32,579 nt of DNA, from IMG/VR virus record IMGVR_UViG_3300036801_000282, positions 1 to 32,579 of that record. One strand, given 5' to 3'. This document shows, in pieces, positions 8,546-30,991 of this stretch. Position numbers and translations under genes: made by a program. The notes below the pieces were generated by a model. The model was not told the origin of the DNA and did not search any database. It saw only the letters and a program-made list of their open reading frames with translations. This DNA comes from a virus. The stretch's first letter is position 1. Each line of letters opens with the position of its first letter.

Positions 8546-9721
8546 ATGCGGATCACTATCAACCGCGACCATGCGTTTTATGAGCGGAGAAATTGGGTTG
8601 TCGATCGTATTCTGAGGCCCATTCTCTACGTGCTGGCCCTGATGGGCTCAGCGATTGCATTTCAGATTAAGCAGGAAGGCGAAGCGCTGGCGGCGGAGGC
8701 GCGCTTTGGCGCGGGCTACTCGCCAGCATCGAACCTGACCAACAATCTGACGCAGACGCAAGTCAATTACTACGATAAAAATTTTGTCGAAAATCTGAAA
8801 GCGGAGACGCCGCATTTGCGCTGCACCGAGCGCCGCCCGCTGCCCGAGAACTCAGGCAACACACTGAACCTTTTCGAATACGTTTCGTTTGGTCCTGATC
8901 TAAGCCAGGCTCCAGAGGGAACGGTAGACACGGGCGAGACGATCAACATTTTGACCGACAAAATTGTGATCGGTAACTATGCCGATTACTTGAACTACAG
9001 CCGCTTTTCTATGCAGCTGGCCATCGACCCCGCTTTGGAAAATGGCGGCAAGGAGCTGGCCTATCAGGCCGCGCTCACCATCGCCTACCTCGTCAAGAAC
9101 ACCACCGATGGCTTGACCAACGTCGATTCCAGCGTGCTGGTGCAGAACGCATTTAATGTTCCCTTCAACAAAAACAACATCACCAGCGCCGTGGCCAGCC
9201 TTCGCCAGCGCAACGTGAAGCCCATGGAAGACGGTTTTTTCTGTGGTCTGATTTGCCCCTTTGCCTGGGGCGATGCTCTCAACGACGCGGCCAACAATTC
9301 ATTCACGGATGTGCTGAAACGCAGCGTGGAAGGCACCCAAATCCTCAAGGAGCTGCCCAGCGGCAAAGGCGACTATGTGCAGGTAATGGAGTGGGCCGGG
9401 GTCCGGTTCTACGAAACCAGCATTGTCACGCAGACGCCGAACTATAAGGGCAACACCGGATTATTCGCTTTTCGCACCTACATCTACGGCAAGGACGGAA
9501 TCATAACCGTCTCGATGGGCGCGAAGGAGAACACACAAATCGGAGATGGCGACTGGAGAAATCTAAAAGTTATAACCAAGCGCTATGACGATGCATCAGT
9601 GTCCGATCCGGCCATGATGATTGGCGGCTCGACGGCCTACAACTTCAACTTTGCAACTGGCGTCGTCCCCGATACCACCGGGCGCGTGCGCATGATCGAC
9701 GCGCCGACGCTTATCTCTTAG
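8546..9721 (+). CDS. Major capsid protein, N4-gp56-like, with hydrophobic N-terminus
   Basis: A 391-aa product forming the icosahedral shell. From about residue 65 it matches the N4-gp56 family (HK97 fold) pattern: QTQVNYYDKNFVENLKAETPHLRCT, then GNTLNLFEYVSF, APEGTVDTGETINI and an ITDKIVIGNYADYLNYSRF-type strand. Later come VASLRQRNVKPMEDGFFCGLICPFAW and a beta-rich C-terminus. GGGAG at 8533-8537 supports the start. Unusually, the first 60 residues contain a basic region followed by a 20-residue hydrophobic stretch (RPILYVLALMGSAIAF) and LAAEA, resembling a signal anchor. No alternative start with a ribosome binding site would remove it. Hairpins flank the gene on both sides. Confidence 0.85.
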   Translation: MRITINRDHAFYERRNWVVDRILRPILYVLALMGSAIAFQIKQEGEALAAEARFGAGYSPASNLTNNLTQTQVNYYDKNFVENLKAETPHLRCTERRPLPENSGNTLNLFEYVSFGPDLSQAPEGTVDTGETINILTDKIVIGNYADYLNYSRFSMQLAIDPALENGGKELAYQAALTIAYLVKNTTDGLTNVDSSVLVQNAFNVPFNKNNITSAVASLRQRNVKPMEDGFFCGLICPFAWGDALNDAANNSFTDVLKRSVEGTQILKELPSGKGDYVQVMEWAGVRFYETSIVTQTPNYKGNTGLFAFRTYIYGKDGIITVSMGAKENTQIGDGDWRNLKVITKRYDDASVSDPAMMIGGSTAYNFNFATGVVPDTTGRVRMIDAPTLIS

Positions 9722-17142: not shown

Positions 17143-17168
17143 AGATATTCAGGACATAGGTGGGAGAT

Positions 17169-19079
17169 ATGGGACCAACAGATAACGCCAATCCGAATTC
17201 TGGAGCAGTTGAGACATCCCCGAACCCAACCGCCCCAGACGGGGCTGGGGTGGATTCAGCGGGGATTCCACCCCAGCCCCAGCCCGGTCCTGCACCGGAG
17301 CCCCAGCCTGCTCCGAACTACGGACCTGAAAACTATGCTATTCCTCTGAATCCTCAAGAGCCGCAAAAGTTGGCCGACGATCAACTGCACCGGGAAAATT
17401 GGGGCACCAAGGTTTATCACGGGATCTTGAACGCGCTGGGCGGAACTAATGACGTTAGTTTTTCGCGCGACCCGCTCACCGGAAAAATGACAGCCAGCAC
17501 CGTGAAGCGCAGCACCGGCGACCAGTGGAAGCAGATTATTTCAGGAGCGTTTACCGGCTACGCGGCGGGCGCGGGCAGGACCGGGCCGGGATCGACGGCC
17601 GCAAAATTCGGGATGGGCATCCAGGCCGGTCAGCAGCAGGCCAAGGAAGGCCGCCAGGAAAAGATCAACGAAGCTAATCAGGATTTCGACGCGCAGCACA
17701 AAGTCGCGCTGACGAACGCCACGCTGGCCATGCAGGGCGTGCAGCTGGCCAAGGCCACTTACGACCTGGGCCGCGATAAAGTGGCCGCCGCATACACCGA
17801 TTCCGAAAGGGAATCGAATTTTGAAAAGGTACTCGCGGCGGGCGGAGAAGGCACGCAGGATTTAGGAATACTTCCCGATTTTCAAGCCGCTATGGCGGCC
17901 TTTCAGAAAGATGCCAAGCTCCACGATCACCAGGTAAACGGTCGGCTGGTTCAATCTCCGCACGTCAACGCCAGCGGAAAAATCGACGGCGTGCACGCGG
18001 CCATCGTCACGCCCAATTTCATGGATGCGCTAATACCCGACGAGCTGGCAATCACCGAACATGCATGGAAGGACGGCAAGGTTGTAGACAAGATTCGAGT
18101 CATTCCGAAAAACTCGCTGACCGGGCGGGATTTTTTCAACATGAGCATGGCGCAATCGAAGCTCTCGATGGAAGAGGCCGCGAAGAAACAAGAGGCGGAG
18201 GCCAGGACGAAAGAAGCCGACACGGCGGCCTCGATCGCCCCGGCCACCATCGCGGAGAAAAACGCCAGCGCCGCAGAATCCAACGCCAAGGCTGGCCAGT
18301 TGAATGCATTGAGTGGCGAAGGCAGCACCGGCACCCCTTTAGTCGATGCCATCGGTCGCGGGCAAGTCGTAGCGGAACGCATGGCCTACCTCTTGACGAA
18401 GAACCCCGAGTTAATGAGCGCGGTTTTGCAGAAGTATCCCGATTTCGACGGCTCCAAAGTGGGCAGTTATGCGCAGGCGTGGAAGGAATTTACTTCGACC
18501 AAACAGAACAGCGCGGGCGCAGCTTTGAACTCGGGCGCGACGGTGCTGAGTCACTTGCGCAATCTGTCGCGGCTCAACACCACAAAAAGCCACATACCGC
18601 ACACCAATGATTGGATCGCTTATCACAACCAGCTCGAAACGCTGGTGCCAGAGCTGGGCAAGTTTTACGGCAATGACACTATCCCCGGCTTGGCGGGATA
18701 CCGCGAAACGCTGGGTTCGACCTTGGTGGGAAACCGGCAAGCGGCCATCGAAACGCAGGCGCACTCCATGGGGCAGAAATTTGATTCCTATGTGCAGCAA
18801 TGGCGGAACTCAGCCCCCAGCAAGGCATATGAGGCGAAGATGCCGGGCATATCTCCCGACGCTATCGACGCGCTCAAAACGCTTGATCCGCATTACCCGC
18901 AAAGCACCCTCAGAGAGCTTGAGGGATTGCGCGCGGTGCAGGCACAGGACGAAGCACGGGGCCAGGGCGGCGGCGGAGCAGCTGGGCCGCAGGTTGTGCC
19001 GCAGGGCGCAACACCGGGCCGGGATGCGCAAGGAAAAATAGTTGGCTACCAGCTCAATGGGCAGTGGCACCAGTTTTGA
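17169..19079 (+). CDS. Putative internal virion (ejection) protein, 636 aa
   Basis: The frame opens with GTG at 17160. I prefer the ATG at 17169 because AGGTGGGAG lies just upstream. Residues 1-55 are a disordered Pro-rich leader (IPPQPQPGPAPEPQPAPNYG). A helical core follows: QWKQIISGAFTGYAAGAGRTGPG, a Gln/Lys-rich coil, an alpha/beta part (ITEHAWKDGKVVDKIRVIPK), a heptad-like Ala/Glu coil (EEAAKKQEAEARTKEADTAAS) and a helical C-terminal region. No cysteine is visible. The size, helical composition, and position between a small MCG-type protein and a 970-aa protein fit an ejection-complex component. No enzyme motif is seen. The leader contains a strong inverted repeat in the DNA. Confidence 0.6.
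   Translation: MGPTDNANPNSGAVETSPNPTAPDGAGVDSAGIPPQPQPGPAPEPQPAPNYGPENYAIPLNPQEPQKLADDQLHRENWGTKVYHGILNALGGTNDVSFSRDPLTGKMTASTVKRSTGDQWKQIISGAFTGYAAGAGRTGPGSTAAKFGMGIQAGQQQAKEGRQEKINEANQDFDAQHKVALTNATLAMQGVQLAKATYDLGRDKVAAAYTDSERESNFEKVLAAGGEGTQDLGILPDFQAAMAAFQKDAKLHDHQVNGRLVQSPHVNASGKIDGVHAAIVTPNFMDALIPDELAITEHAWKDGKVVDKIRVIPKNSLTGRDFFNMSMAQSKLSMEEAAKKQEAEARTKEADTAASIAPATIAEKNASAAESNAKAGQLNALSGEGSTGTPLVDAIGRGQVVAERMAYLLTKNPELMSAVLQKYPDFDGSKVGSYAQAWKEFTSTKQNSAGAALNSGATVLSHLRNLSRLNTTKSHIPHTNDWIAYHNQLETLVPELGKFYGNDTIPGLAGYRETLGSTLVGNRQAAIETQAHSMGQKFDSYVQQWRNSAPSKAYEAKMPGISPDAIDALKTLDPHYPQSTLRELEGLRAVQAQDEARGQGGGGAAGPQVVPQGATPGRDAQGKIVGYQLNGQWHQF
17241..17280 (+). repeat. Perfect 14-bp inverted repeat inside the ejection-protein gene
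   Basis: GGGGCTGGGGTGGA (17241-17254) is perfectly complementary to TCCACCCCAGCCCC (17267-17280) with a 12-nt loop. An alternative 6-bp stem, CCCCAG (17233-17238) with CTGGGG (17245-17250), competes with it. It lies 70 nt into the coding region, encoding the Pro-rich leader. An RNA hairpin of this strength could slow ribosomes or attenuate transcription. The structure is seen; the function is inferred. Confidence 0.6.
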
Positions 19080-19096
19080 AAGAGAACTAAAAAACT

Positions 19097-22009
19097 ATGG
19101 CGCAAACATCAGAAATGCCCGCAGGGGTGACGCTCGACAAGCAGCCCGCAGCTCAGGCCATGACCGTGCCCGCAGGGGTGACGCTCGACAAGCAGCCCGC
19201 AGCTGCTCCAGCTGCTCCAGCTCCACCCAAGCGGACAGGGCTGGGCGCGCTGCTTCCCGATCCCGACGCGCCCGACCCGCTGGGCATGGGCTATCAAAGA
19301 AACCTGGTCACCGGAGCGGTGAAATCTGGCGCGCAAGTGCTGGGGACAATCCTTGACCTGGTGAGCAGCCCCGGCCCGCTGGCCGATTTGGATCCAAATA
19401 AAACCAATGTGAACCCCAAGGCCACGGCGCACATAAAGGACGCTGCCGATTGGCTGCGCAGCGGAACCGAACCTAAAGGCTTTTTAGAAAATGTCGGTGC
19501 GATTGGCGAACAGGTTTTGGAATATATGGGCGGCGGGGAACTGTTGCGGTTGGTTGGCCCGGCGAGAGCTGTAGCGGGCGCAGCCCGCGCCGTCGAAACC
19601 GGCGAGCATTTGAAGCAGGCGCAGCAGGTTGCGACGGTACTAAAAAACAATCCCAAAATCGCGGGCCTCGTGTCGATCGGCTTGAAGGCGTCGAAGGATG
19701 CGCTAGTGCAGGGCGGGCAGACTTACCTGCATACCGAAGATCCAACTCAGGCCGCGATCGCGGGCGGCATCGGCGGCGGCGTGGGGGCTCTAGCCGAAGG
19801 CGCAGGCGCGGCGGGCCGCTATCTGCAAAAGATTTCTCCCAAGTCCGTCAACATCGCGGGCGAGGAAGTTCCGGCGCTGGTTTCGCAGATCGGAGAATCC
19901 GGCAGACCAACAGGCACGGGCGCGGAGGGCGCGCCGGTCATTCAGAGAGGCCAGCAGGCAGGAACACCGAAGGCGATCAGAACGCTCGCGCAACGCGCAA
20001 CTAAAAATGTTTTAGATCGGCTTAATTTGTCGCGGCCAGTTGTGCCCGAAGCCATCACCGACCCGAGCCGGATGCTGGCCGCGCCCGAAGGCGGCGCGGC
20101 GGGTTCCGCCTATGCGTATGACACCCAGGGGCGCATGAGTATAGGCGCAGCGCCGGGCGAAGCTGGCCAATCGCGGCCGTTTTTCACGATGGACATTACC
20201 CCGCCCGCCGAAGAGGCCAGCGGCCAGGTCGCGCACGAGGCGGCGAAATTCGAGCCATCAGCAACGAACGTACCCGAAGGCGGCACGGCGGGGCCGCAGA
20301 CCGGCGAGCAGCTGGGCACAACAGCGCGCACCGTCCCCGAACGGATGCAGCAGCGCACGCAGGCCTACACCGGAGCAATAGCCGAATCGCCTAGAGAGCC
20401 GGGCACAGGAAGAGAAGGGCCAAGCGGCGCAGAGCCCACGCAGACAGAACCGCGCGTAGAAAGAACCAACACCGGCCAGCTGGGCACCAACAACCCGCAG
20501 GAAGCGCAGGCCTGGCTGCGCCATCTCGAAGACATGCAGGCAACCAGCGACTATAAAAATCTAAGCGACGCGCAGCGAGCCACCATTGAAGCCCAGCGCA
20601 AGGCCCTACAGGAGCAGCTTTCGCTGTACCACGCTTCGCCTTATGTGTCGCGCTTCGCTCCGATCGACAGCGCGGGCGTCGCCGGGAATGTGGCCACCTT
20701 CGGAAATGCCGCCGATCAGATACAGGCCTCCGTGGAGCCGGTTTTTCAAACGCTCGACAAGGCCAGCAATGGCCAATTCACGGCGCTGCGCGAGACAGCC
20801 AAGAAAGCCAAGGCGGTCATGCAGAACCCCGGCAGCATGGAATCATTCGACGCCGCGAATGCGCGCTACAAGGAAGCCACCAGCACAATCAATTCTCTTA
20901 TCACCAGCCACGCCGACGCCATCAGCCGCGAGGACTATATCGCCGCCAAGCAGGCATGGAAATCCTCTGTTCGTCTCGATGAGCTGCATACCGTCTTTGA
21001 GCGCATGATGAACGGCGTCACCGCCGAAGAAACCGCGACGCAGGGGCTTCCCCGCTTCATGAAGAAGGGAAACACCGAAGCCCTTGAAAAGTGGCTTGCA
21101 GGGGGAACCAATCGCAGCCAGGCAGAGGAACTGTTAGGCAAGGAAGGCGTTGCAAATCTCAAAGACATAACCCTGCTCATGTCTAACGCCAACTCCAATC
21201 GCTCTCTGCAAACCATTTTGAAAAACGTGGCCACAGAGCTGGGCAGTCACGCGCGCCTCGGAGGCCTGGGCGGGGCCGTGGGCAGCATGATGGCCCACCA
21301 GCTTGGTTATTCATGGTTCGGCGGCGCGTGGGCGGGCGGCATGACGGCAGCGGCCATGCGCCTGATTCTCAGAGATGCGGCCACCAACCCGCGCATCGGC
21401 AACATGGTGACGTGGGCGGCAAAAAATGGACTCAGCCCGCAGCACTATGCGCCGCTGATTGCGCGCGCCATCGCCGAACCTTTGCAGGAGCAGCCCAAGC
21501 CGCAACAGGGCAACCGGCAGACGTCGCAACAGGGAAGCAACCGCGAGCAGGAAACCGACGAGGAACATGGGACGGCTTACGACACCGGCCCGCGCGCGGG
21601 AAAGCCGGTTGAGGGAATGATTCGAGGGGGAAACATCGACGTGAACCATCGGCCCGAAGTCACCAACGCGGACGGCACACACAGCACCATCTTTTCGGTG
21701 ACCGTGCCGCTCGATCGAGAGGGCAATGCGGTGAGCTGGGAGAGCCCCGCGATCGCAAACTATGCGCTGGTGCCGGGAATCGTGAACGGAAGATTTCTAA
21801 CCCCCAATGGAAAAAAGCCAGTGGGCAAGGACGCCAACGGCGCGCTTGAGGACAGGGCCGCCGAGAACTATCAACACACCCGCCAACACCTGGGCATTTT
21901 CAAATCGGCGGAAGCCGCAAGCAAATACGCGGGCGAGACACACGCCTACATGCCCGATGGCACGGCGCGAAAAGTGTTCACGCCCAGCGGAGAGCAGGGA
22001 ACTAAATGA
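19097..22009 (+). CDS. Large internal virion protein, 970 aa
   Basis: The ATG follows a weak GAAAGAG site. The N-terminus carries a 17-residue tandem repeat with PAGVTLDKQPAA twice. Residues 45-260 are amphipathic and Gly-rich helical (GAVKSGAQVLGTILDLV, AAIAGGIGGGVGALAEGAGAAG). The middle is long, disordered and Pro/Gln/Gly-rich. Residues about 560-800 are helical, with GGLGGAVGSMMAHQLGYSWFGGAWAGGMTAAAMRLI as a possible membrane-active helix. The last 150 residues (GNIDVNHRPEVTNADGTHSTIFSVTVPLD...YQHTRQHLGIFKSAEAASKYAGETH) match a domain widespread at the ends of large phage virion proteins. No lytic transglycosylase motif is visible and no cysteine. It is probably the main ejection or channel protein. 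Confidence 0.65.
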   Translation: MAQTSEMPAGVTLDKQPAAQAMTVPAGVTLDKQPAAAPAAPAPPKRTGLGALLPDPDAPDPLGMGYQRNLVTGAVKSGAQVLGTILDLVSSPGPLADLDPNKTNVNPKATAHIKDAADWLRSGTEPKGFLENVGAIGEQVLEYMGGGELLRLVGPARAVAGAARAVETGEHLKQAQQVATVLKNNPKIAGLVSIGLKASKDALVQGGQTYLHTEDPTQAAIAGGIGGGVGALAEGAGAAGRYLQKISPKSVNIAGEEVPALVSQIGESGRPTGTGAEGAPVIQRGQQAGTPKAIRTLAQRATKNVLDRLNLSRPVVPEAITDPSRMLAAPEGGAAGSAYAYDTQGRMSIGAAPGEAGQSRPFFTMDITPPAEEASGQVAHEAAKFEPSATNVPEGGTAGPQTGEQLGTTARTVPERMQQRTQAYTGAIAESPREPGTGREGPSGAEPTQTEPRVERTNTGQLGTNNPQEAQAWLRHLEDMQATSDYKNLSDAQRATIEAQRKALQEQLSLYHASPYVSRFAPIDSAGVAGNVATFGNAADQIQASVEPVFQTLDKASNGQFTALRETAKKAKAVMQNPGSMESFDAANARYKEATSTINSLITSHADAISREDYIAAKQAWKSSVRLDELHTVFERMMNGVTAEETATQGLPRFMKKGNTEALEKWLAGGTNRSQAEELLGKEGVANLKDITLLMSNANSNRSLQTILKNVATELGSHARLGGLGGAVGSMMAHQLGYSWFGGAWAGGMTAAAMRLILRDAATNPRIGNMVTWAAKNGLSPQHYAPLIARAIAEPLQEQPKPQQGNRQTSQQGSNREQETDEEHGTAYDTGPRAGKPVEGMIRGGNIDVNHRPEVTNADGTHSTIFSVTVPLDREGNAVSWESPAIANYALVPGIVNGRFLTPNGKKPVGKDANGALEDRAAENYQHTRQHLGIFKSAEAASKYAGETHAYMPDGTARKVFTPSGEQGTK
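19116..19204 (+). repeat. Tandem 51-nt repeat (38 nt identical)
   Basis: Bases 19116-19153 recur exactly at 19167-19204, an offset of 51 nt, or 17 codons. They encode PAGVTLDKQPA twice at the N-terminus of the 970-aa virion protein. The reading frame is kept, so the unit expanded as a peptide repeat, presumably through slippage or recombination. Confidence 0.85.
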
Positions 22010-22722
22010 CCTTAGATTCTTTAGACCGCGAGCTGGACGCGCCAGGCCATCATGATCCCGGCGTCGAGCAGCTGCGCCGGATCGACGCCAACCCTGATGG
22101 CTGGGTGGAAGAGAATTTAGAACTTTTCGAATCCAACTGCGCGAAAGCTGAAAGGTATAAATTGCCCGGTCAGGAGCGATGGGAGGGCCGGGAGAAAGAA
22201 GAAGAACGCACGGTGCGAATCCTGCACCCCAGCGCGGTCATGCGCAGGCTTCGCACGGCGGGCGTGGACGCGCGCAACGGCGAACATGCGAACGCGCGGC
22301 TGTGGCTGAATGACTGGACCCGCGCGGGCCTGGTGGGCGTCAATGCGTGGGTCGCTCCCGAAGAGATGGACGAAGACGGTTACCTCTTGGAGCTGGAGAC
22401 GGCGAGCAGCCAGGAGAAGCGCGACCTCATCACCCAAAATTTCTATGCCTGCCGCGAAGGCCGCAAGGTGCGGCGCACGCTCACCAGCCTGCAAGAGCCA
22501 TGCGGCCCCGAGTGGAGCGTGATGCATTTTGACGATCACGGCATTGCGACGCGGGAGAAGTATCGCGGCTGGCGCACCGCCATGCTGGTTTTGATTGTGG
22601 CCGGCCTTTTGACCGAGGCCGAAGTAGACCGGGCTTTCGGCCCGCCGCTGGGTGAAGCCGGGGCGTGGTACCGCGAGCAGTTGCAGTGCTGGCGGCAAAT
22701 CAAGATGGGCAGGCCGATATGA
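22006..22722 (+). CDS. Hypothetical protein, 238 aa, with WxxE-like conserved region
   Basis: The start overlaps the previous stop (ATGA at 22006-22009). The N-terminus is acidic. Residues 20-85 (IDANPDGWVEENLELFESNCAKAERYKLPG, EERTVRILHPSAVMRRLRTAGVD) and the C-terminal region (EWSVMHFDDHGIATREKYRGWRTAMLVLIVAGLLTEAEVDRAFG) look well ordered and conserved in style. The 'eWsvM.fD.yGi...eKyrGWRT.ll.Li..g.ltE..a...FG' pattern is one I associate with hypothetical proteins next to hydrolase genes in podovirus-like prophages. The hydrophobic run TAMLVLIVAGLL is short and probably a buried helix. Its stop overlaps the hydrolase start (ATGA at 22719-22722). Function unknown. Confidence 0.65.
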   Translation: MTLDSLDRELDAPGHHDPGVEQLRRIDANPDGWVEENLELFESNCAKAERYKLPGQERWEGREKEEERTVRILHPSAVMRRLRTAGVDARNGEHANARLWLNDWTRAGLVGVNAWVAPEEMDEDGYLLELETASSQEKRDLITQNFYACREGRKVRRTLTSLQEPCGPEWSVMHFDDHGIATREKYRGWRTAMLVLIVAGLLTEAEVDRAFGPPLGEAGAWYREQLQCWRQIKMGRPI

Positions 22723-23123
22723 ATCTTGAAACCTATGCACGCGCACAGATGGCGCGCTTTGCCGTCGAGGAAGGCGCGCGCCACGGCGGCATAAACAACA
22801 TGCTGGCGGTCCTTCATGTGCTGCGCAATCGCGTATTCGCGGGCTGGGGCGATTGGATGGAAGTGGTACAGCGCGCACCGGAGAAAAGGGGCGTCATATA
22901 TCCGCCCGAGATGCCCAACATACGCACCAACAATGTGCGGATCATCTTGAACCGCGTCGATGAAATCTATACGCGGGCTGACCTTTTAGATTTGACCGGC
23001 GGCGCGCTGTTTTACTTCGAGCCTGGCTATCCGCTGACGGAGTGGTTTGAAAAGGAAGTGCTGGGCCAGCCCGACGATCACAAGCGCGTGGCGCACATCG
23101 GCCCGGTTTGGTTTTACAAGTGA
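22719..23123 (+). CDS. SleB/CwlJ-like cell-wall hydrolase
   Basis: A 134-aa product, compact for this family's catalytic domain. Residues 8-38 (ARAQMARFAVEEGARHGGINNMLAVLHVLRNRVFAG) match the hydrolase_2 pattern 'ar.iygEArge...g..AVa.Vi.NRv', which places the presumed catalytic Glu at the second E of VEEGAR. DLTGGALFYFEP (around residues 89-100) and RVAHIGPVWFYK at the end match the conserved 'A..f' and 'i..h.Fy' parts. It would cleave peptidoglycan glycan strands during entry or lysis. There is no signal peptide, so either it is in the virion or a holin outside this window releases it. The gene is coupled by ATGA to the preceding one. The family call rests on this motif pattern. Confidence 0.6.
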   Translation: MNLETYARAQMARFAVEEGARHGGINNMLAVLHVLRNRVFAGWGDWMEVVQRAPEKRGVIYPPEMPNIRTNNVRIILNRVDEIYTRADLLDLTGGALFYFEPGYPLTEWFEKEVLGQPDDHKRVAHIGPVWFYK

Positions 23124-23129
23124 GGGACC

Positions 23130-23705
23130 ATGCCAATCACACCGGCAATCACGCTAACCGCTAATCTCGAAAGCATTCTTGGCGGCGTTGCGACGGCTGG
23201 CTATCTGCGCATTACGCTTTGCGGATTCGGCCCCGCTATGCCCTCTGTGCCGGGCGTGGGAATGCTGGCTGATGCAGGTATCCCCAAGCAGCTCGGGCCG
23301 CAGGGCGGGGCTCCGCTGTCCCAGCTGCTATGGGGCAACGATGTTATCTCCCCATCCGGCACCTTTTACGAAATCGCGGTGCTGGACATAAACGAAAACG
23401 CGGTGCAATGCGGGAACTACCAATTCAGCGGATCGGGCGCGATCGACCTCAGCATGGCCCCGCAGATTGTCGCACCCTACGGTTTCATTCTCGGCAACCT
23501 TCGCTATGTGCAATGCACGGGCGCGGTACCCGGCACGATATATACAGCGCCGGGGCAAGTCATAGCCGCCGCCTATAACGGCATCCTCATGCGGCCAGGC
23601 ATTGATTACACGGCGCTGGGCGGCACCATCACTCTGACATTCTCGACGGAGATTAAGCCAAATGGGCAACCGGATACGATCAGCGCATTTTGTGTGGTTA
23701 GTTAG
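23130..23705 (+). CDS. Tail appendage-type structural protein
   Basis: A 191-aa product with GAGGG before the ATG. Residues 70-115 (ISPSGTFYEIAVLDINENAVQCGNYQFSGSGAIDLSMAPQI) match a strand-rich unit common at the base of phage tail fibres, in which 'gtyYev.v.d..g..v...y.ftG...idls' recurs. The C-terminus is beta-rich (GGTITLTFSTEIKPNGQPDTISAFCVVS). It is the last gene before the signal-peptide cluster, and its final 44 nt overlap the next gene. It probably anchors or accompanies the spike encoded downstream. The appendage role is inferred from pattern and position. Confidence 0.6.
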   Translation: MPITPAITLTANLESILGGVATAGYLRITLCGFGPAMPSVPGVGMLADAGIPKQLGPQGGAPLSQLLWGNDVISPSGTFYEIAVLDINENAVQCGNYQFSGSGAIDLSMAPQIVAPYGFILGNLRYVQCTGAVPGTIYTAPGQVIAAAYNGILMRPGIDYTALGGTITLTFSTEIKPNGQPDTISAFCVVS

Positions 23706-26181
23706 AACGCTCGGCATTGTCGCGGGGACCGTCGCCCTTTGCGCGCTGATGGCCGCGCAGCCAGTGCCGACTATCAACCCGCATACCAATATCGCGTGGC
23801 CTCCAGGATGCGAGCTGTACAACGCGGCCACCAATGCGTGTGTGCACCCCGGAGGCACGGCGGCCAACCCTGCCGGGACGCCGGGCCAGCTGCAATACAA
23901 CGCGGGCGCTTTCATGGGCGCGAGTCCTTCGAGCATGGACGTGAATGGCAACATGCAGGCCAGCGTAAACACCCGCATCAACGTCAGGATTTACGGAGCC
24001 AAAGGGGATTGCACGAGCGACGATCACGACGCCATCATTGCGGCGCAGAGCGCGGCCTTGGCTACCCCCGGAGGCGCAACGCTCGAATTTCCCAAAGCGC
24101 CGGGCGGCTGCTACCTCACCAGCAAACTGGAATGGCAGGGCGTGCCGATCGAGGGCCAGCCGGGCGGAACCGAGGGGCTGGTAGTTATCAAGAGCAAGCC
24201 GGGGCAGGATATTTTGCACGTCGCAGATCCCGCGCTGGTTTCGTACCAGTACATAAAATCGTGGTCGATTCGCAATCTCCAGCTCACTCTGGATACCTCC
24301 GTGGGCGGCACCTTCCCGCATCGCTGGCCGGGGCGATGGTTTGATGATGGCGCTATGACCACCGGGAGCGCGGTATTCAAGACCATCACCGGAAACATCA
24401 CATGCGCGGACATTGGCCAGGCCATCAAAGTTTTCGGCGCGGGGCCGGGGGGAACGGATCTGATAACCACGGTCGCGGACGTGGCCCCGTGCTGGGCCAC
24501 TACCACCAGCGTGTTTCAAATCGTCACCCTTGCGGCGGCGGCTTCCACCACCGTCACTAATGCCCACACCTACCTGTCTTTACTGAATCTGCCAGTGACC
24601 ACCAACATCGGCGCGTGCGCGATCGCATGGGATAACTTCGACGGCGACCCATCGCACTGGAACAATCCCGCCGCCACCGGCAACTATGCAAATTTCTATG
24701 ACGTGATGAATCACGTCACCATCGCATCCACTGCGCCGACCGGCAACAATTGCGCCATCTATACGCAGGGCGTGTGGGGCTTTTACGGGCTCGATGTGCG
24801 CAACTTCGAAGTGCGCGGCCAGGTCTTCGGCGTGGTGCAAGGCTCGTCAGAGTTAGGCGCATACTTTCAAAGCAGCTCCAACGACTTTCAGAAATGGGAT
24901 CACGGCTCCATCGAACACGTTAAATATCCATGGATCGAATACAACGGCGGCTATAACTCATGGTCGGATATTGAACTAACCGCGGAATTCGGTTTCCAGC
25001 TCATCAACCTGGGCAACAGATGGTTTGACGGGCTCGCAAGCGGGTACATAAACATCTCCGAATTTGAAGGCGGAACGGGCGCGATCGGGATGCGCTTTGA
25101 AGGCACCAATATGCACATCGTCAACACCGGCCTTACTGGCGGTGCCAGTCAGAAGGCCTATCTCTACACCTTTTCCTCGATGTGCGATGGCTGTTACATG
25201 ATCGGAACCTTGCAGGCGGGCGGAGCTGGAAACCACATAAAATTCAGCGCCAATCACATTGCTCCGACAGACATAACCGATGGCGGCCTGAATAACGCTT
25301 TCACCAACAGCTATGCCTCTAATCCCTTTGCCGGAATCCAGCCTAACTACAACATCAACATCACCAAAAAGAAAGGACAGAACAACGAAATCAATCGCAT
25401 GACGGCGGACTTCATTCGAGACGGAAATTACTCAACTCCGTACTCGCTGAATGATCTTCTGATTTGGCCCAAGGATCTGCTACTGCCGGGCGGCACCCCT
25501 GGAATGTACGAGGCCAACATACAGGCAGACGCCAGCTCTCCAACAGGTTCAAACATCGTCGTCCGCACGGCGCACGCGCTCTCGCAATACATTCAGATGT
25601 TCACTTATGACCCCAACGCCTTCATCGCCATTGGAAGCGCTGTACCTGCCGCCCCGGCGACGATCGCCTTTTATGCCAAGTGCCCCGCTGGAACTACAAC
25701 GTTCACGCTGGGCGTGGGAGCCATGAACGGCGGCTACGGGTACAACCAATTTTTTAATAAAGTTTTTAGTTGCACGACCGCCTATCAGACCTACTCCACA
25801 ATCGTGGATTTCACTCCGTATCCTGGCGGCGATATTTTCTTCGTCTCGACAAACAACACTTTCTATGTGGCGTGGATTGCCATTCGTCCCAACGTGGGAG
25901 ACGTGAACGGAGTTTCGATTGCTTCGATAACTCCACTGGTCGGCACCACCGGCAGCATCGGCGGCTCAGCGCTGACCGCAGGACAGTGCACCAGCGGGAC
26001 GGTCGCGGTCGCCAGCTCTACCACCGCGATGGCGGTTGTGGCCACCCCCGTGACTTATCCCGGCGATGCGATCGGATGGCGCGGCTACGTGAGCGCGGCG
26101 GGCACCGTGACCGTGAAAATCTGCGCGACCATCGCGGGCACACCCACGGCGAGCAATTACAACGTGCGAGTCATTCCGTAA
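23662..26181 (+). CDS. Beta-helix (pectate-lyase-fold) spike-like protein with N-terminal signal peptide
   Basis: An 839-aa product starting at 23662 with GGAG ten bases upstream. The N-terminus has RIR, then a hydrophobic core (TLGIVAGTVALCALMAA) followed by QPVPT, a convincing Sec signal peptide. Residues 70-90 (GTPGQLQYNAGAFMGA) are a tail-fibre-like segment. INVRIYGAKGDCTSDDHDAIIAAQSAA...LEFPKAPGGCYLTSKL (about 107-160) is the classic start of a pectate-lyase-superfamily beta-helix, seen in tail spikes that degrade capsule or EPS. The C-terminal 250 residues are a separate beta domain with a carbohydrate-binding look. About 14 cysteines remain after the signal peptide, which is unusual for a cytoplasmic virion protein. 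A downstream Met at residue 30 would remove the signal but lacks a ribosome site. Confidence 0.7.
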   Translation: MGNRIRSAHFVWLVRTLGIVAGTVALCALMAAQPVPTINPHTNIAWPPGCELYNAATNACVHPGGTAANPAGTPGQLQYNAGAFMGASPSSMDVNGNMQASVNTRINVRIYGAKGDCTSDDHDAIIAAQSAALATPGGATLEFPKAPGGCYLTSKLEWQGVPIEGQPGGTEGLVVIKSKPGQDILHVADPALVSYQYIKSWSIRNLQLTLDTSVGGTFPHRWPGRWFDDGAMTTGSAVFKTITGNITCADIGQAIKVFGAGPGGTDLITTVADVAPCWATTTSVFQIVTLAAAASTTVTNAHTYLSLLNLPVTTNIGACAIAWDNFDGDPSHWNNPAATGNYANFYDVMNHVTIASTAPTGNNCAIYTQGVWGFYGLDVRNFEVRGQVFGVVQGSSELGAYFQSSSNDFQKWDHGSIEHVKYPWIEYNGGYNSWSDIELTAEFGFQLINLGNRWFDGLASGYINISEFEGGTGAIGMRFEGTNMHIVNTGLTGGASQKAYLYTFSSMCDGCYMIGTLQAGGAGNHIKFSANHIAPTDITDGGLNNAFTNSYASNPFAGIQPNYNINITKKKGQNNEINRMTADFIRDGNYSTPYSLNDLLIWPKDLLLPGGTPGMYEANIQADASSPTGSNIVVRTAHALSQYIQMFTYDPNAFIAIGSAVPAAPATIAFYAKCPAGTTTFTLGVGAMNGGYGYNQFFNKVFSCTTAYQTYSTIVDFTPYPGGDIFFVSTNNTFYVAWIAIRPNVGDVNGVSIASITPLVGTTGSIGGSALTAGQCTSGTVAVASSTTAMAVVATPVTYPGDAIGWRGYVSAAGTVTVKICATIAGTPTASNYNVRVIP

Positions 26182-26195
26182 CTAAGGGAGAAACT

Positions 26196-27569
26196 ATGAA
26201 ACGAGTGCTGACCCTGTCGGCTTTCTGGATTCTATTGGCGGCAGTGCTTTTCGTAATTCTGTTGCTCATCTCCGAACACAGAAGGCCGCGCACCGCGCCG
26301 CCGAATGGCATGGTGATTAACGTGGTCACCGATTTAGGAATAGACAACAGCGGCAACAGCGACGTTTCCGAGAGCATTCTAAAAGCGATTAAAAACCTCA
26401 ATCCGTCAACCCCGGCCACTCTGTTTTTTCCTCCGGGGAAATACACGATTGATGCGGGCGTGCACATCCCCGCCACCGAATCAACCTTCGGCGGGCTGCG
26501 CATTCTCGGCGCGGGAATGGGCAGCACTTACTTTTTATCCAACTGCACAAACGGATTTGCATGGTGGTACGACAATCAGGGCTCGACCGACAATCTGAGC
26601 GGCCCCGAATTTTCGAGCGCCACCATTCAGGACACGTCATACGCGGGCAGATGCCGCGACTTGCTTCGCTTCACGCAGACCGCCATGAACGTCATCAGCC
26701 GCATGAGACTGTTGAACGCGCAGGGCAACACCTACAAGGCCGGAAACGTTTCAATCAGCGGGAACACCATTACCGGGCGCGGCGTGAACTGGACAAGCGA
26801 AATGATTCCAAGCGTGCTCCAGGTCAACAATGTGATGGCTGAGATTTGCGGTTTCAAAAGCACCACTCAGCTGGTGCTGTGCGATACGGCCTGGCCGGGC
26901 GGCGCGGTAAGCAATGCGAGCTATGCGATCGCATGGGGCGGGCGCGCGCTGACCTTCGACGCGGGCAAGACGTACACCCAATACATCACCGTGAGCGATG
27001 TTTATATTTCTAATTCGCTGTTCGGGATCTTCTCCATGGGAACCAGCAAGGGCGGCAATTCTCGAATCACGGTGCAGGGCAAGGCGGGATGGATCGGCAT
27101 CAGCGGCAAGCGAATCCCCAACTCTGTCGGGATCTGGCTGGGCAAGCACTCGGACACGTTTCAAATTTCAATTCCGGTTAACAACGTGGCGCGCTGTTTC
27201 GTGATGGACTCGGCACACACCAATTTTTTCGATGGTGCGGACTGCGAGAACAATTCGAACTCGACGCCGGTTGATACCTGCAACGGCGGAGTGGCGAAAC
27301 AGGATTGCATCGCGGGCTATGAGATAAGCGCGGACGCCAACTCTACCGGCTTCGGCAATTCGATCGGCAGCCCCTATGTGTATCTGGCCGGGACCGCAGT
27401 GAAGGTGGACAACACTTACGGAGCGGCCTATCTCAGCATCATGGCCTTGCGCAGCGCCAACTTTTCCAACTTGAATTCTTATGAATTCTCTGGCGTCAAG
27501 GGATGCCCGGCCAGCGGAGTAGCAACCACGGCCACCATTGTGGATTGGGATTGCACGCACACGCACTAA
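26196..27569 (+). CDS. Second beta-helix protein with N-terminal signal anchor
   Basis: A 457-aa product. AGGGAG seven bases before the ATG fixes the start. Residues 1-28 are MKRVLTLSAFWILLAAVLFVILLLIS, a long hydrophobic helix followed by EHRRPR. This looks more like an uncleaved anchor than a cleaved signal. Residues 43-110 (VTDLGIDNSGNSDVSESILKAIKNLNPSTPATLFFPPGKYTIDAGVHI...LRILGAGMGSTYF) are the pectate_lyase_3-type entry into a right-handed beta-helix. The helix appears to continue to about residue 440, with many Asn/Gly/Ser turns. About ten cysteines are present. It probably acts on polysaccharide, but no catalytic residues can be assigned. The gene follows the first spike by 14 nt. Confidence 0.65.
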   Translation: MKRVLTLSAFWILLAAVLFVILLLISEHRRPRTAPPNGMVINVVTDLGIDNSGNSDVSESILKAIKNLNPSTPATLFFPPGKYTIDAGVHIPATESTFGGLRILGAGMGSTYFLSNCTNGFAWWYDNQGSTDNLSGPEFSSATIQDTSYAGRCRDLLRFTQTAMNVISRMRLLNAQGNTYKAGNVSISGNTITGRGVNWTSEMIPSVLQVNNVMAEICGFKSTTQLVLCDTAWPGGAVSNASYAIAWGGRALTFDAGKTYTQYITVSDVYISNSLFGIFSMGTSKGGNSRITVQGKAGWIGISGKRIPNSVGIWLGKHSDTFQISIPVNNVARCFVMDSAHTNFFDGADCENNSNSTPVDTCNGGVAKQDCIAGYEISADANSTGFGNSIGSPYVYLAGTAVKVDNTYGAAYLSIMALRSANFSNLNSYEFSGVKGCPASGVATTATIVDWDCTHTH

Positions 27570-27581
27570 AGGAGAGACGCG

Positions 27582-28439
27582 ATGAAGCACACAAAGCAAA
27601 TCATGCTGGGCCTGGTCCTGATCGTGATGGCCAGTATCACCATTGCAGCCGTGACCAACCCGCAAAAATTCGGCGCGATGTATTCGAGCGATGGCACCGG
27701 CAACCCTGGGAGCTGGGTCGCAGTGAGCGGCAGCGGCGCGGCCTACACTGGCAGCGTGACACCGGCAGGCATCATGGTTTCAAGCGATGGCACCGGCAAC
27801 CCTGGGAGCTGGGTCGCGGCGACGGCAAACACCTTTGCAAACGGAGTGACGAGCATTGACACATTGGCCGGAGCTTTCACGTTCGGCGGCTCTGGCGTCA
27901 GCCATGTAGCCAATGCGTACACGTTCAGCAATTCGCCCACGGTGACGGAGTGGCAAAATGGACCCAAGCAGGCGGTGAGTGTAGGTTTCGGCCAGAATGT
28001 TACCCGCCTCTTTTCTTTCGTGATGCCAGTCAATATGACCAACGTCACGAAGATCAGCTACAACGTCAACACCACAGCCGACAACACCGCCAACCTTTAC
28101 GACATTGGTTTCTATTCAGCCACCGGCACCCTGCTTTGTCACACCGGACCAATCGCCGGAACAACCACTTTCCCTGCTAACAATGCCTCCGTCACGCTCA
28201 CATTTCTAAGCACCGGCTGTACTCTCACGGCCGGGACGCGCTACCTGTTTGGAAACACAACTAACGCGGCGGCGAGTGGAACCATGCAAAGCATCGGATT
28301 GGGATTTATGGCCGTGGCGAACGGTGTGCCAACCGCAGGCAATACAACCACGGGCGGCACTCTTAATAACTCACTCACCCCTCCCGCCGATAGCTGGGTT
28401 TCAACCTCCACCGTTCCAGCCTTTGCGCTGCACAACTAA
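27582..28439 (+). CDS. Secreted beta-rich protein with internal repeat
   Basis: A 285-aa product with GGAG before the ATG. MKHTKQIMLGLVLIVMASITIAAVTNP is a textbook signal peptide (basic n-region, hydrophobic core, AxA-like cleavage region). The mature part opens with two copies of SSDGTGNPGSWVA, 32 residues apart. Beta-rich sequence follows (SVGFGQNVTRLFSFVMPVNMTNVTKISYNVNTTADNTANLYDIGFYSATGTLLCHTG), of the type seen in jelly-roll or carbohydrate-binding domains: 'Y.v...d.....ydiGiy...G.ll.hTG'. Two cysteines lie about 30 residues apart and may bond. It sits between the spike-like genes and the Fn3-like pair. Surface or glycan binding is a reasonable guess, but unproven. Confidence 0.6.
   Translation: MKHTKQIMLGLVLIVMASITIAAVTNPQKFGAMYSSDGTGNPGSWVAVSGSGAAYTGSVTPAGIMVSSDGTGNPGSWVAATANTFANGVTSIDTLAGAFTFGGSGVSHVANAYTFSNSPTVTEWQNGPKQAVSVGFGQNVTRLFSFVMPVNMTNVTKISYNVNTTADNTANLYDIGFYSATGTLLCHTGPIAGTTTFPANNASVTLTFLSTGCTLTAGTRYLFGNTTNAAASGTMQSIGLGFMAVANGVPTAGNTTTGGTLNNSLTPPADSWVSTSTVPAFALHN
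27687..27817 (+). repeat. Direct repeat of 35 nt, 96 nt apart
   Basis: Bases 27687-27721 recur exactly at 27783-27817. They encode the peptide around SDGTGNPGSWVA at the start of the mature secreted protein, in frame (32-codon spacing). The nucleotide identity, with no synonymous differences, points to recent duplication or gene conversion. Confidence 0.85.
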
Positions 28440-28461
28440 AAACTTTTAGAAAGGGAGACAC

Positions 28462-28983
28462 ATGAAGCCAACCATGCTGCTGCTCTTACTGGCCGCGATC
28501 GCGCTCAGCCAGGCCACCGCGCAGGCACCGCCCGCACCCAGCACGCAACAGGGCCCGCCGCCCCCAGCTGCTCCGCCGCCGCCCGATTCCAATCTCAAGC
28601 AGGCCGGTCACCAGGCTGACCTGGCTTACTCAAACCCGGCGTGCACCACAACCAATCAGTGCACGCTGCAAATCTTTCGCGCGCAGTGTGACAACGCGAC
28701 GACATGCCCGAACTATATTTATTCCCCGCAATCGTTCAAGACACTGAGCATGGCGGGGCTCTCGACCAATGCCACGGCCACCGGCACCAGCTGGACTTAC
28801 TCGGACACCGACACGGCGCTGCAAGACAACACCAGCTATTCGTGGGTTTCAACCGCAACGTTTGTTAACAATCCGACGATGGTGAGCGGTCCATCGAGCC
28901 CCTTTCTCGGGACGATTCCGGCACTCCCCTCACAGGTTCCGCCTCCGGCTCCGACCACGGGGACGTGCAAAATTGTCAGGTGA
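28462..28983 (+). CDS. Secreted Fn3-like cysteine-rich protein (copy 1)
   Basis: A 173-aa product with AGGGAG before the ATG. MKPTMLLLLLAAIALSQATAQAPPAP is a signal peptide with an AxA site (ATA-QA). A Pro-rich linker follows, then NPACTTTNQCTLQIFRAQCDNATTCPNY with four cysteines. The segment TGTSWTYSDTDTALQDNTSYSWVSTATFVNNPTMVSGPSSPFLGTIP has the strand pattern of a fibronectin type III domain. The C-terminus is TTGTCKIVR. The next gene encodes a paralogue with the same cysteine pattern and ending. Fn3 domains in phages usually mediate weak binding to surfaces. Here the signal peptide implies export from the host cell. The precise role is unknown. Confidence 0.65.
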   Translation: MKPTMLLLLLAAIALSQATAQAPPAPSTQQGPPPPAAPPPPDSNLKQAGHQADLAYSNPACTTTNQCTLQIFRAQCDNATTCPNYIYSPQSFKTLSMAGLSTNATATGTSWTYSDTDTALQDNTSYSWVSTATFVNNPTMVSGPSSPFLGTIPALPSQVPPPAPTTGTCKIVR

Positions 28984-28985
28984 GC

Positions 28986-29453
28986 ATGAAACTACGATTG
29001 TGTTTTTTGATTTGTTTTTTAGTATCTGTCGCGGCAAATGCGCAGACAGGTATAGCAGTTTCCTCCGATAACCCGATGTGCACGAGCGCCAATCCATGCA
29101 CCTTGCAGATATATCGGGCCGCGTGCAGCGGCGGCGGCGGGCCGATGGGCGGCGTCAGCTGCCCGCTCTATCCCGATCCCGCGTTCATCGCGCTGGCCAT
29201 CAACACCAACACGCTGGCCACCACCGCGACGCAGACCGGCACGCGCTGGATTTTCTCGGACAAAAACGGCGACTCCACGCGCCCCAACCTGGTCGCGCCC
29301 AATCTCTACACCTATGTCGAAACCGCAATCTATAACGGCGACGCCACCCGCAGCCCCAGCCTGCCGTCACAGGCGCTCACGCTGGCATTTCAGGTAGCCG
29401 CGCCCAACGCGCCGCCCTTTCCCACGATCGGCACCTGTCGCATTGTCAAGTAA
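28986..29453 (+). CDS. Secreted Fn3-like cysteine-rich protein (copy 2)
   Basis: A 155-aa product starting two bases after the previous stop, with AGGTGA upstream. I reject the in-frame start at 28965, which lies inside the previous gene. MKLRLCFLICFLVSVAANAQTG is a signal peptide with an AxA site (ANA-QT). The mature part has NPMCTSANPCTLQIYRAACSGGGG...VSCPLYPDP, then an Fn3-like strand series (TRWIFSDKNGDSTRPNLVAPNLYTYVETAIYNG...SLPSQ) and the ending IGTCRIVK. Aligned by eye with copy 1, all five mature cysteines match, but the rest has diverged. This is an old tandem duplication kept under selection for disulfides. It is the last gene before the early promoter region. Confidence 0.65.
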   Translation: MKLRLCFLICFLVSVAANAQTGIAVSSDNPMCTSANPCTLQIYRAACSGGGGPMGGVSCPLYPDPAFIALAINTNTLATTATQTGTRWIFSDKNGDSTRPNLVAPNLYTYVETAIYNGDATRSPSLPSQALTLAFQVAAPNAPPFPTIGTCRIVK

Positions 29454-29578: not shown

Positions 29579-30991
29579 ATGAAAATCATTGGATTCGAGG
29601 CGGAGAATTTTAAGAAGCTCCGCGTGGTACAGATCCACCCCAACGGTCGCATGGTGCAGATCACGGGCAAGAACGGCGCGGGCAAAACATCGGTGCTCGA
29701 TGCGGTGTGGTTTGGATTGAAGGGCCGCAAAGCCCTGCCGGTGCAGGCGGTGCGCAAGGGCCAGGAGAGCATGAAGGTAAAGCTCGACCTGGGCGAGTTT
29801 ACCGTGACCCGCACCCTCTCCGCCGATGGCGCAATCCCCACCATCTCCATAGAAATGGCTCCCGGCAAGACCCGCACCATGACGCCGCAGGATTTTCTGG
29901 ACGACATTTTTGGAGAGCTGACATTTGACCCGCTTGATTTTGTACACATACGGACAGGCGAGACTCCAGCCGCCCACAGCGCGCGGCAGATTGCGATGCT
30001 GCGCAAGACGGCCAAGGTGGATATGGATTTCGAGGCCATCGCGCTTGAAAACGAGAAAGATTATGAAGCGCGCAAGCTGGTCAACCGGGACGCTGAGCAG
30101 CTGGAGGCGCGAATCAATGGCATGACGGTACTCGATGGCCTGCCCAAGAACAAGCTCGATGAGGAAGCGATTCTAAAAAAACTAAACGCGGCGGGCGATG
30201 CCAACCGCCAGGCGCAGCAGGTTTTTCAGAACCGGCAAGAGCTGGGCGCGATCGCGGCCAGGCTGGGCATTGCGTGCAGCAACAATGCGCAGTTTCTTGG
30301 CGGGCAGAAGGGCAAGATTGAAAAACTCGAAGAAGATTTACGGATGGCCAAGGATGCGCTCAAGGCGGCAGAGATAGAAGACAAGCGCATCTCAAAGGAA
30401 TACGCCGAGGCCCAACGCGCTTACGAAACCGCGCCCACGGGCGAGCCCATCGACGTTACCGCGCTGGCCATAGAGCTGCAATCGGCGCAGCGCACCAATC
30501 GCGCGATCGACACCCGCGCCGAGTTTGACCAGCGCACGGCGGAGCTGAAAGCCAAGCGGGAGGAATCAAACAAGCTGACGCGGCAGATGGAAGCCCGCGA
30601 AGAGAAGAAGAAAGCGGCGCTGGCGAAGGCCAAGATTCCCGTGGAGGGGCTGACCTTTGACGAGCGCCGCGTGAGCTTCAACGGCTTGCCTCTGGAGAAC
30701 CTGGGCGAAGCCGAGCAGATTCGGATTTCGGCGCAGATCGGCATGGCCGCCAACCCGAAACTAAAAATTCTATGCGTGCGCAACGGCGAGGCCTTGGACG
30801 AAGACGGCATGAAAGTGCTGGCCGACCTGGCCGAAGAGTACGACTTTCAAATTTGGATGGCGCGCGTGGATTCGAGCGGCAAAGTGGGCATCGTGCTTGA
30901 GGACGGCATGGTGATAGCCGAGAACCCCAGCGAGCCCGCACCCGCGCCCGCTGCGAAGAAGAAGGCCAAGGGAGGCGAGACGATCCAATGA
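29579..30991 (+). CDS. SbcC/Rad50-like AAA ATPase (phage recombination/repair)
   Basis: A 470-aa product with GGAGG nine bases before the ATG. The N-terminus MKIIGFEAENFKKLRVVQI...GRMVQITGKNGAGKTSVLDAVWFGLKG has the SMC/RecF entry strand and a Walker A at GKNGAGKTS (residues 30-38). A central charged coil lies at about 160-360. The C-terminal lobe has NLGEAEQIRISAQIGMA in the signature-motif position and LKILCVRNGEALDEDGMKVLADLA in the Walker B/D-loop position, followed by a Lys/Ala/Pro tail. The signature and Walker B are degenerate compared with bacterial SbcC, as in many phage versions. Such proteins act with a nuclease on DNA ends. None is visible downstream inside the window. It heads the early operon next to the DnaC-like gene. 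Confidence 0.75.
   Translation: MKIIGFEAENFKKLRVVQIHPNGRMVQITGKNGAGKTSVLDAVWFGLKGRKALPVQAVRKGQESMKVKLDLGEFTVTRTLSADGAIPTISIEMAPGKTRTMTPQDFLDDIFGELTFDPLDFVHIRTGETPAAHSARQIAMLRKTAKVDMDFEAIALENEKDYEARKLVNRDAEQLEARINGMTVLDGLPKNKLDEEAILKKLNAAGDANRQAQQVFQNRQELGAIAARLGIACSNNAQFLGGQKGKIEKLEEDLRMAKDALKAAEIEDKRISKEYAEAQRAYETAPTGEPIDVTALAIELQSAQRTNRAIDTRAEFDQRTAELKAKREESNKLTRQMEAREEKKKAALAKAKIPVEGLTFDERRVSFNGLPLENLGEAEQIRISAQIGMAANPKLKILCVRNGEALDEDGMKVLADLAEEYDFQIWMARVDSSGKVGIVLEDGMVIAENPSEPAPAPAAKKKAKGGETIQ

Follow-up and report, generated by a model that had tools for sequence, protein, structure and literature searches.

Signal-peptide-bearing, tailspike-like genes in a tailed phage that most likely infects an acidobacterium

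In the textbook view, tailed-phage virions are finished in the cytoplasm before the cell lyses, while filamentous phages make virion proteins, pIII and pVIII, with cleavable signal peptides. Among other phages, those of Porphyromonas gingivalis encode Q-rule signal-peptide proteins that have no known function and for which a role in modifying the host envelope was proposed (PMC10367356), and Xanthomonas phage PBR31 encodes an esterase with a signal peptide, gp40, that is similar to tail-associated hydrolases (PMC10975493). Five Tunturi phages, including the cultured, plaque-forming podoviruses Tunturi 1 and 2 of Tunturiibacter, have also been described (PMC11924767). Here, we analyze a cassette of five consecutive genes, A to E, in the window, i.e., the whole 32,579-nucleotide stretch of IMG/VR record IMGVR_UViG_3300036801_000282 (32.6 kb). 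The window belongs to a tailed phage with genes for the large terminase, portal, and major capsid protein, unlike a filamentous-type phage, whose virion is assembled at the membrane and which lacks a terminase and a capsid.

Ordinary tailspikes and fibres are cytoplasmic products without a signal peptide, whereas all five cassette products bear export signals. We propose that the cassette encodes receptor-binding tailspikes or fibres of an Acidobacteriota podovirus-type phage, which would be Sec-exported, disulfide-bonded, and joined to virions outside the cytoplasm; judging from sequence, we give this reading a probability of roughly 60%. The window phage most likely infects an acidobacterium: a homologue scan of genomes with gene A produced matches exclusively in Acidobacteriota, and the best match of the window capsid protein among annotated phages is that of Tunturi 3 of Tunturiibacter (44%). 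Most relatives of the window are metagenomic, with inferred hosts. The assignment to podovirus type is based on the gene set and on the fact that Tunturi 3 is a podovirus; a 1116-amino-acid (aa) window protein is homologous to Tunturi 3 gp19.

Export signals of the cassette products

The cassette, all on the plus strand, contains the following features:

23662-26181, +, gene A: signal peptide and beta-helix tailspike-like protein, 839 aa; supported by a Shine–Dalgarno (SD) site and ATG, by the predictor, and by signal-bearing relatives in 10 contigs
23662-23757, +, signal peptide of A, predicted cleavage MAA↓Q33
23773-23811, +, motif INPHTNIAWPPGC just behind the signal peptide of A, conserved in relatives L005, L008, L009, L021, and L022
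26196-27569, +, gene B: signal anchor and pectate-lyase beta-helix (PF12708), 457 aa; fused behind A in L003
27582-28439, +, gene C: signal peptide and SSDGTGNPGSW-repeat protein, 285 aa; called by the predictor
28462-28983, +, gene D: signal peptide (ATA↓Q), Pro-rich linker, and Cys-rich domain, 173 aa; called by the predictor
28986-29453, +, gene E: signal peptide (ANA↓Q) and Cys-rich domain, 155 aa; called by the predictor

The original prediction, made from the sequence of the window, was that each of these five open reading frames (ORFs) starts with a basic n-region and a hydrophobic core, and this proved correct. Signals were called by a rule-based predictor that recovered nine out of ten known E. 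coli signal peptides; in a control set of 115 annotated coding sequences of T7, KP32, Sf6, and Tunturi 3, it called four, three of which were spanin (Rz-type) membrane proteins. All five cassette products were called, and the outcome that would have spoken against the prediction, all five scoring as cytoplasmic, was not seen. With the same n-region limit, the only ORF called outside the block was a truncated DnaC-like frame with a doubtful start (5/5 in the block versus 1/22 outside, p ~7e-5 by our own arithmetic). An SD-like site is present upstream of the ATG in each of the five genes, the fifth initiating at ATG 28986. Since the ATG of A has such a site and the downstream Met30 does not, the signal peptide of A is probably translated. 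Mis-called start codons were ruled out on the same grounds: the starts are SD-supported, and the downstream methionines of A are not.

Cleavable-type signal peptides are present in A, C, D, and E, while B has a signal anchor, with 20 hydrophobic residues followed by EHRRPR. By eye, the cleavage sites of D and E are perfect, and those of A and C (IAA↓V or TIA↓A) are acceptable; the earlier expectation of clear AxA sites in several products held for D and E and not for B, in which no clear cleavable signal is found.

Two beta-helices had also been expected, and for B this was borne out by a PF12708 (Pect-lyase) match above the family cut-off. Gene A has no Pfam match, and its beta-helix is suggested by an AF2 model of low confidence (pLDDT 60), the nearest folds of which are phage depolymerase tailspikes (KP32gp38, the K2-2 tailspike protein (TSP), CBA120 TSP4, and Sf6 TSP, covering Klebsiella, CBA120, Acinetobacter, and Sf6 spikes). 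Together with canonical tail-fibre repeats in a signal-bearing protein of relative L021, these are bodies of the depolymerase or fibre-repeat type. No peptidoglycan hydrolase domain, as would be expected of an exported or signal-arrest-release endolysin, was found in A–E, and the putative hydrolase at 22719-23123 is itself without a signal. D and E are tandem paralogues (36% identity) with no relatives identified beyond each other; a search of viral contigs for a relative of E found none, and the Fn3 label initially given to both could not be confirmed. In annotated phages, homologues were found neither for B nor for the body or the C-terminal domain of A.

As a separate observation, a swappable C-terminal module is formed by the last ~85 residues of A (window 25918-26178), which share 59–72% identity with the ends of proteins that are otherwise unrelated, namely the GDSL-lipase spike of L003 (10144-11964) and a prophage-region fibre protein of L056.

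The mature parts contain 14 (A), 10 (B), 2 (C), 5 (D), and 5 (E) cysteines, while the two ejection proteins (639 and 970 aa) contain none, in agreement with the counts first reported for A, B, D, E, and the ejection proteins. When sequences were pooled, cysteine accounted for 1.95% of residues in 33 signal-bearing proteins and for 0.52% in 56 other structural proteins.

Virion-binding domains and cassettes in related phages

Relatives were found through gene A and through the capsid protein (~80% identical), and a common gene order is observed in this family: capsid, followed further on by ejection proteins, a hydrolase, a signal-less protein of 191–213 aa, signal-bearing A, more cassette genes, some of them with signals, and then lysis or SbcC-like genes. 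In all relatives found in which the start of the A homologue is intact, this protein (32–41% identity) begins with a signal peptide, the sequence of which varies. The content of the cassette differs among relatives. In L003, A and B form one chain with a single signal, while in the window they are split and each half has its own (B is 45% identical to residues 741–1155 of L003 A). The homologue of C in L008 has a signal. Phages with other cores (L002, L003, L004, L007, and L011) bear the same kind of proteins, so that the cassettes span several phage lineages; L007 has ~8 consecutive signal-bearing genes. A fluke of the window contig is ruled out by these cassettes and those of Tunturi 1 and 2, and the signal-bearing cassette is a recurrent feature of acidobacterial phages.

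In three relatives, L070, L071, and L073, the signal is directly followed by a domain that matches the head-binding domain of a tailspike (PDB 7eeq, E=2e-9). In 10 of 10 annotated phages of other or unknown hosts, this domain stands at the protein's own N-terminus, with no signal, and the Sf6 tailspike likewise has none, as had been stated for the spikes of ordinary phages. A split arrangement is seen in L004, where a 248-aa signal-less protein corresponds to the N-terminal 135 residues of tail-fibre families (phrog_1640, E=3e-30) and ends at that point; a signal-bearing beta-helix is encoded by the next gene. Virion-binding N-terminal domains are thus found in the relatives; the window itself has an adaptor-like upstream gene and no such domain within A–E. 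A signal peptide and a C-x-x-C pair occur together in nine of the 80 copies of the head-binding domain from IMG/VR, and neither is present in the remaining 71, which have P-L-x-G-G at the place of the pair (Fisher p=4e-12, a value that ignores kinship). In nine full copies from Terriglobia genomes, a signal was called by rule in seven, and the other two are signal-like by eye.

Upstream of the cassette, the window contains the following:

17160-22009, +, two Cys-free ejection-type proteins; same order in L005, L008, and L009
22719-23123, +, small putative cell-wall hydrolase (weak Hydrolase_2 match, E=0.025), located before the adaptor; counterpart in L005, L008, and L009
23130-23705, +, likely virion adaptor or anchor of the spike set, 191 aa, no signal peptide; 51–59% identity in three family members

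The order continues with cassette A–E, an SbcC-like ATPase, and a DnaC-like loader; the conservation of synteny in L005, L008, and L009, and of the same kind of cassette in Tunturi 1 and 2, is what a check proposed with the original prediction had looked for. The product of 23130-23705 is likely an adaptor or anchor for the spike set, as suggested by its AF2 model (low confidence, pLDDT 62), which among viral folds lies nearest to the N-domains of tailspikes and to an endosialidase adaptor. It also has a weak profile match to the N-domains of Tunturi 3 gp14 and gp15; no PDB relative was found by sequence. The INPxTxIxWPxxC motif behind the signal of A is conserved in the family while the signal peptide sequences themselves diverge, and is a candidate docking peptide for the adaptor.

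Cassettes of this kind are also found in cultured podoviruses. In Tunturi 2, signals are carried by gp12, gp13, gp14, gp16, and gp17 (consecutive except for the small gp15), annotated as hypothetical, tail fiber, pectin lyase, hypothetical, and virion structural, with 20, 10, 21, 2, and 34 cysteines in the full chains, respectively. Tunturi 1 is nearly identical in this region. All large fibre or spike candidates of the two phages have signal peptides, and no signal-less candidate of comparable size was found in their genomes. For the domain that follows the signal of Tunturi 2 gp12, matches were obtained to Serratia phage MTx tailspikes and to a Klebsiella phage KA2-1 tail fibre. In the paper describing these phages (PMC11924767), signal peptides are not mentioned and there is no mass spectrometry; the genes are labeled as tail fiber, tail spike, pectin lyase, virion structural, or hypothetical. 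Tunturi 3, which has the core of the window, encodes signal-less fibres gp14–gp18 between gp13 and gp19; the window family has no genes at this position.

By a strict rule, Gln occupies the +1 position in 27 of 44 spike signals scored; a first count of 44/48 included off-site matches and was discarded. At the signal-peptidase sites predicted in an acidobacterial genome, Gln is again the most frequent +1 residue (9/34, L174–L193). This preference resembles the Q rule, which has been described for Bacteroidetes.

Several observations lie beside the cassette. Tunturi 2 gp79 (L069:4010-5209, 399 aa, annotated as a tail protein) has a lipoprotein-type signal and may represent one more exported component of the phage. 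The major capsid protein of the window (8546-9721), as well as that of L014 and L015, has a ~50-residue N-terminal extension with a strongly hydrophobic stretch, ILRPILYVLALMGSAIAF, that is absent from the Tunturi 3 capsid protein. The SbcC-like ATPase (window 29579-30991; phrog_1499, E=5e-81, a phrog of unknown function) lies downstream of the spike/lysis region family-wide. In Terriglobia, a recurring block resembling a prophage or gene transfer agent (L056, 8719-14307 and neighbours; L057, 7765-19946; L058, 317-10436) contains one or more signal-bearing fibre-like proteins and terminase-, portal-, and protease-type genes, with capsid- and connector-type genes also present in L056 (names are our own reading of the sequences); it adjoins a maf-like gene in L056 and L057, which suggests a fixed chromosomal element. 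An Acidobacteriaceae genome (L027:5738-13237) encodes a signal-bearing 2499-aa protein with tail-fibre-like repeats and two beta-helix-like domains, one of the A type; the genes next to it are transposase- and ATPase-like and not obviously those of a phage.

Proposed route of assembly and alternatives

The proposal builds on signal peptides that are SD-supported and conserved, a head-binding domain located behind a signal, anchors encoded separately and without a signal, and a Cys pair acquired along with the signal. From these we infer export, cleavage, disulfide formation, incorporation into the virion, and the place and time of docking. Products A–E would be made as Sec precursors, which the host would export and cleave at A-x-A↓Q sites, with B possibly remaining membrane-anchored. 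The spikes would then fold and form disulfides in the periplasm, and would attach to virions outside the cytoplasm, either during lysis or later. Docking may follow two routes, through a signal-less adaptor already present on the tail (the window family and L004) or through the spike's own head-binding domain (L070-type phages).

The originally predicted export module with oxidative folding is supported by the signals and the linked CxxC pair. Four roles had been put forward for it: modification of the infected cell's envelope or matrix, a secreted depolymerase set, a block to superinfection, and addition to virions after lysis. Addition to virions outside the cytoplasm fits best, because in relatives signal peptides directly precede virion-binding domains, because all large fibre or spike candidates of Tunturi 1 and 2 bear them, and because L004, and probably the window as well, encodes the signal-less anchor in a gene of its own. 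A secreted depolymerase or surface-modifying set fits less well.

Several results weigh against export of spikes destined for the virion. The signal-less window adaptor and the ordinary Sf6 tailspike both have 2.1% Cys, so that enrichment is not specific to signal-bearing proteins; since signal-less cassette members and the Sf6 spike are equally rich, cysteine content is supporting evidence, a weaker mark of export than originally claimed, and was discarded as independent proof. The association of the signal with CxxC may rest on just one or two evolutionary gains: with cysteines masked, parsimony on the tree of the head-binding domain gives two gains, and a single origin is not rejected (p-AU 0.384). 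A claim to have proved repeated independent gain was consequently dropped. CxxC, complete in the 80-locus set, is absent from seven of the nine Terriglobia genome copies, and was dropped as a law. Tunturi 3–5 infect the same host genus, Tunturi 3 even the same strain as Tunturi 1 and 2, with signal-less fibres, which implies that the export tag is not a host requirement. The homologue of C in L005 and a glycosidase after A in L022 lack signals, so not every cassette member is tagged. The topology of B, an anchor without a clear cleavable signal, is ambiguous, and the AF2 models of A and the adaptor are of low confidence.

Among the alternatives, a mixed set survives best, though we regard it as only a tentative one: A and some others would be virion spikes, while B, D, and E would be envelope proteins of the infected cell, e.g., periplasmic helpers of assembly or lysis. 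The uncleaved type of the B anchor, the tandem paralogy of D and E, the failure to find a relative of E in the viral collection, and the variable cassette content of relatives agree with such a division, but B is fused to A in L003, and other cassettes, too, contain several large spike-like proteins. Because a mixed set is compatible with either virion or non-virion roles, the confidences of the readings overlap.

It is unlikely that the products form an exported set, secreted or displayed by the infected cell, that never enters the virion and instead strips or alters the cell's own polysaccharide, excludes competing phages, or frees progeny from debris. Signal peptides combined with glycan-active folds would suit such a set, signal-bearing fibre-like proteins also occur in Acidobacteriaceae chromosomes, and the signal-peptide proteins of P. 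gingivalis phages were proposed to modify the host outer membrane (PMC10367356). However, some of the best-matching chromosomal copies adjoin portal- and capsid-type genes, the head-binding domain lies directly behind the signal in relatives, and in L004 a stand-alone fibre anchor precedes a signal-bearing spike; moreover, Tunturi 1 and 2 and the window family would be left without a recognizable receptor-binding protein.

Least probable is that the signal-like N-termini are not used for export and that the hydrophobic segment aids trimerisation or virion attachment during cytoplasmic assembly: tailspike N-termini do normally hold the attachment function, and the signal-less homologue of C shows that the fold is possible in the cytoplasm, but the n-h-c architecture is complete with A-x-A↓Q sites, an intact attachment domain follows the signal, no IMG/VR copy of that domain has a signal without the CxxC pair, and the +1 Gln of the spikes is the commonest +1 residue in the acidobacterial genome.

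Comparison with known systems

The open-access literature searched contained no report of tailed-phage spikes with signal peptides and, as the original prediction had supposed, no described system of exactly the same kind; an exported spike route is not known for tailed phages. The nearest reports found there concern the P. gingivalis phage proteins and the PBR31 esterase. We put at slightly better than even the chance that the cassettes represent a new route of tailed-phage assembly (secretory precursors, signal peptidase, periplasmic oxidation, and extracytoplasmic fitting) that is common in Acidobacteriota phages and arose at least once. If so, the last step of virion assembly moves outside the cytoplasm, Cys-rich fibre genes are accounted for, and soil phages acquire toughened receptor-binding proteins. 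Phage signal peptides, often read as marks of host-surface modifiers, may then mark virion parts.

The proteins of P. gingivalis phages share with the cassette signal peptides whose cleavage exposes Gln, but they have not been recognized as tail spikes and their host belongs to Bacteroidota. PBR31 gp40 is a single gene in the lysis region, and the phage's own tailspike has no signal peptide. Filamentous pIII and pVIII resemble the cassette products in that signal peptides are present on (here, putative) virion proteins; filamentous virions, however, assemble at the membrane, whereas the window phage is a terminase-packaged, tailed icosahedral phage. With the tailspike and tail-fibre depolymerases of podoviruses (P22/Sf6 gp9-like, KP32gp38, and CBA120 TSPs), the cassette shares the beta-helix by structure match, the position after the ejection proteins, and, in relatives of the window, virion-binding N-domains or separate adaptors. 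It differs from them in its Sec signal peptides, in the Cys pairs gained, and in the predicted folding in the periplasm and joining to the virion outside the cytoplasm.

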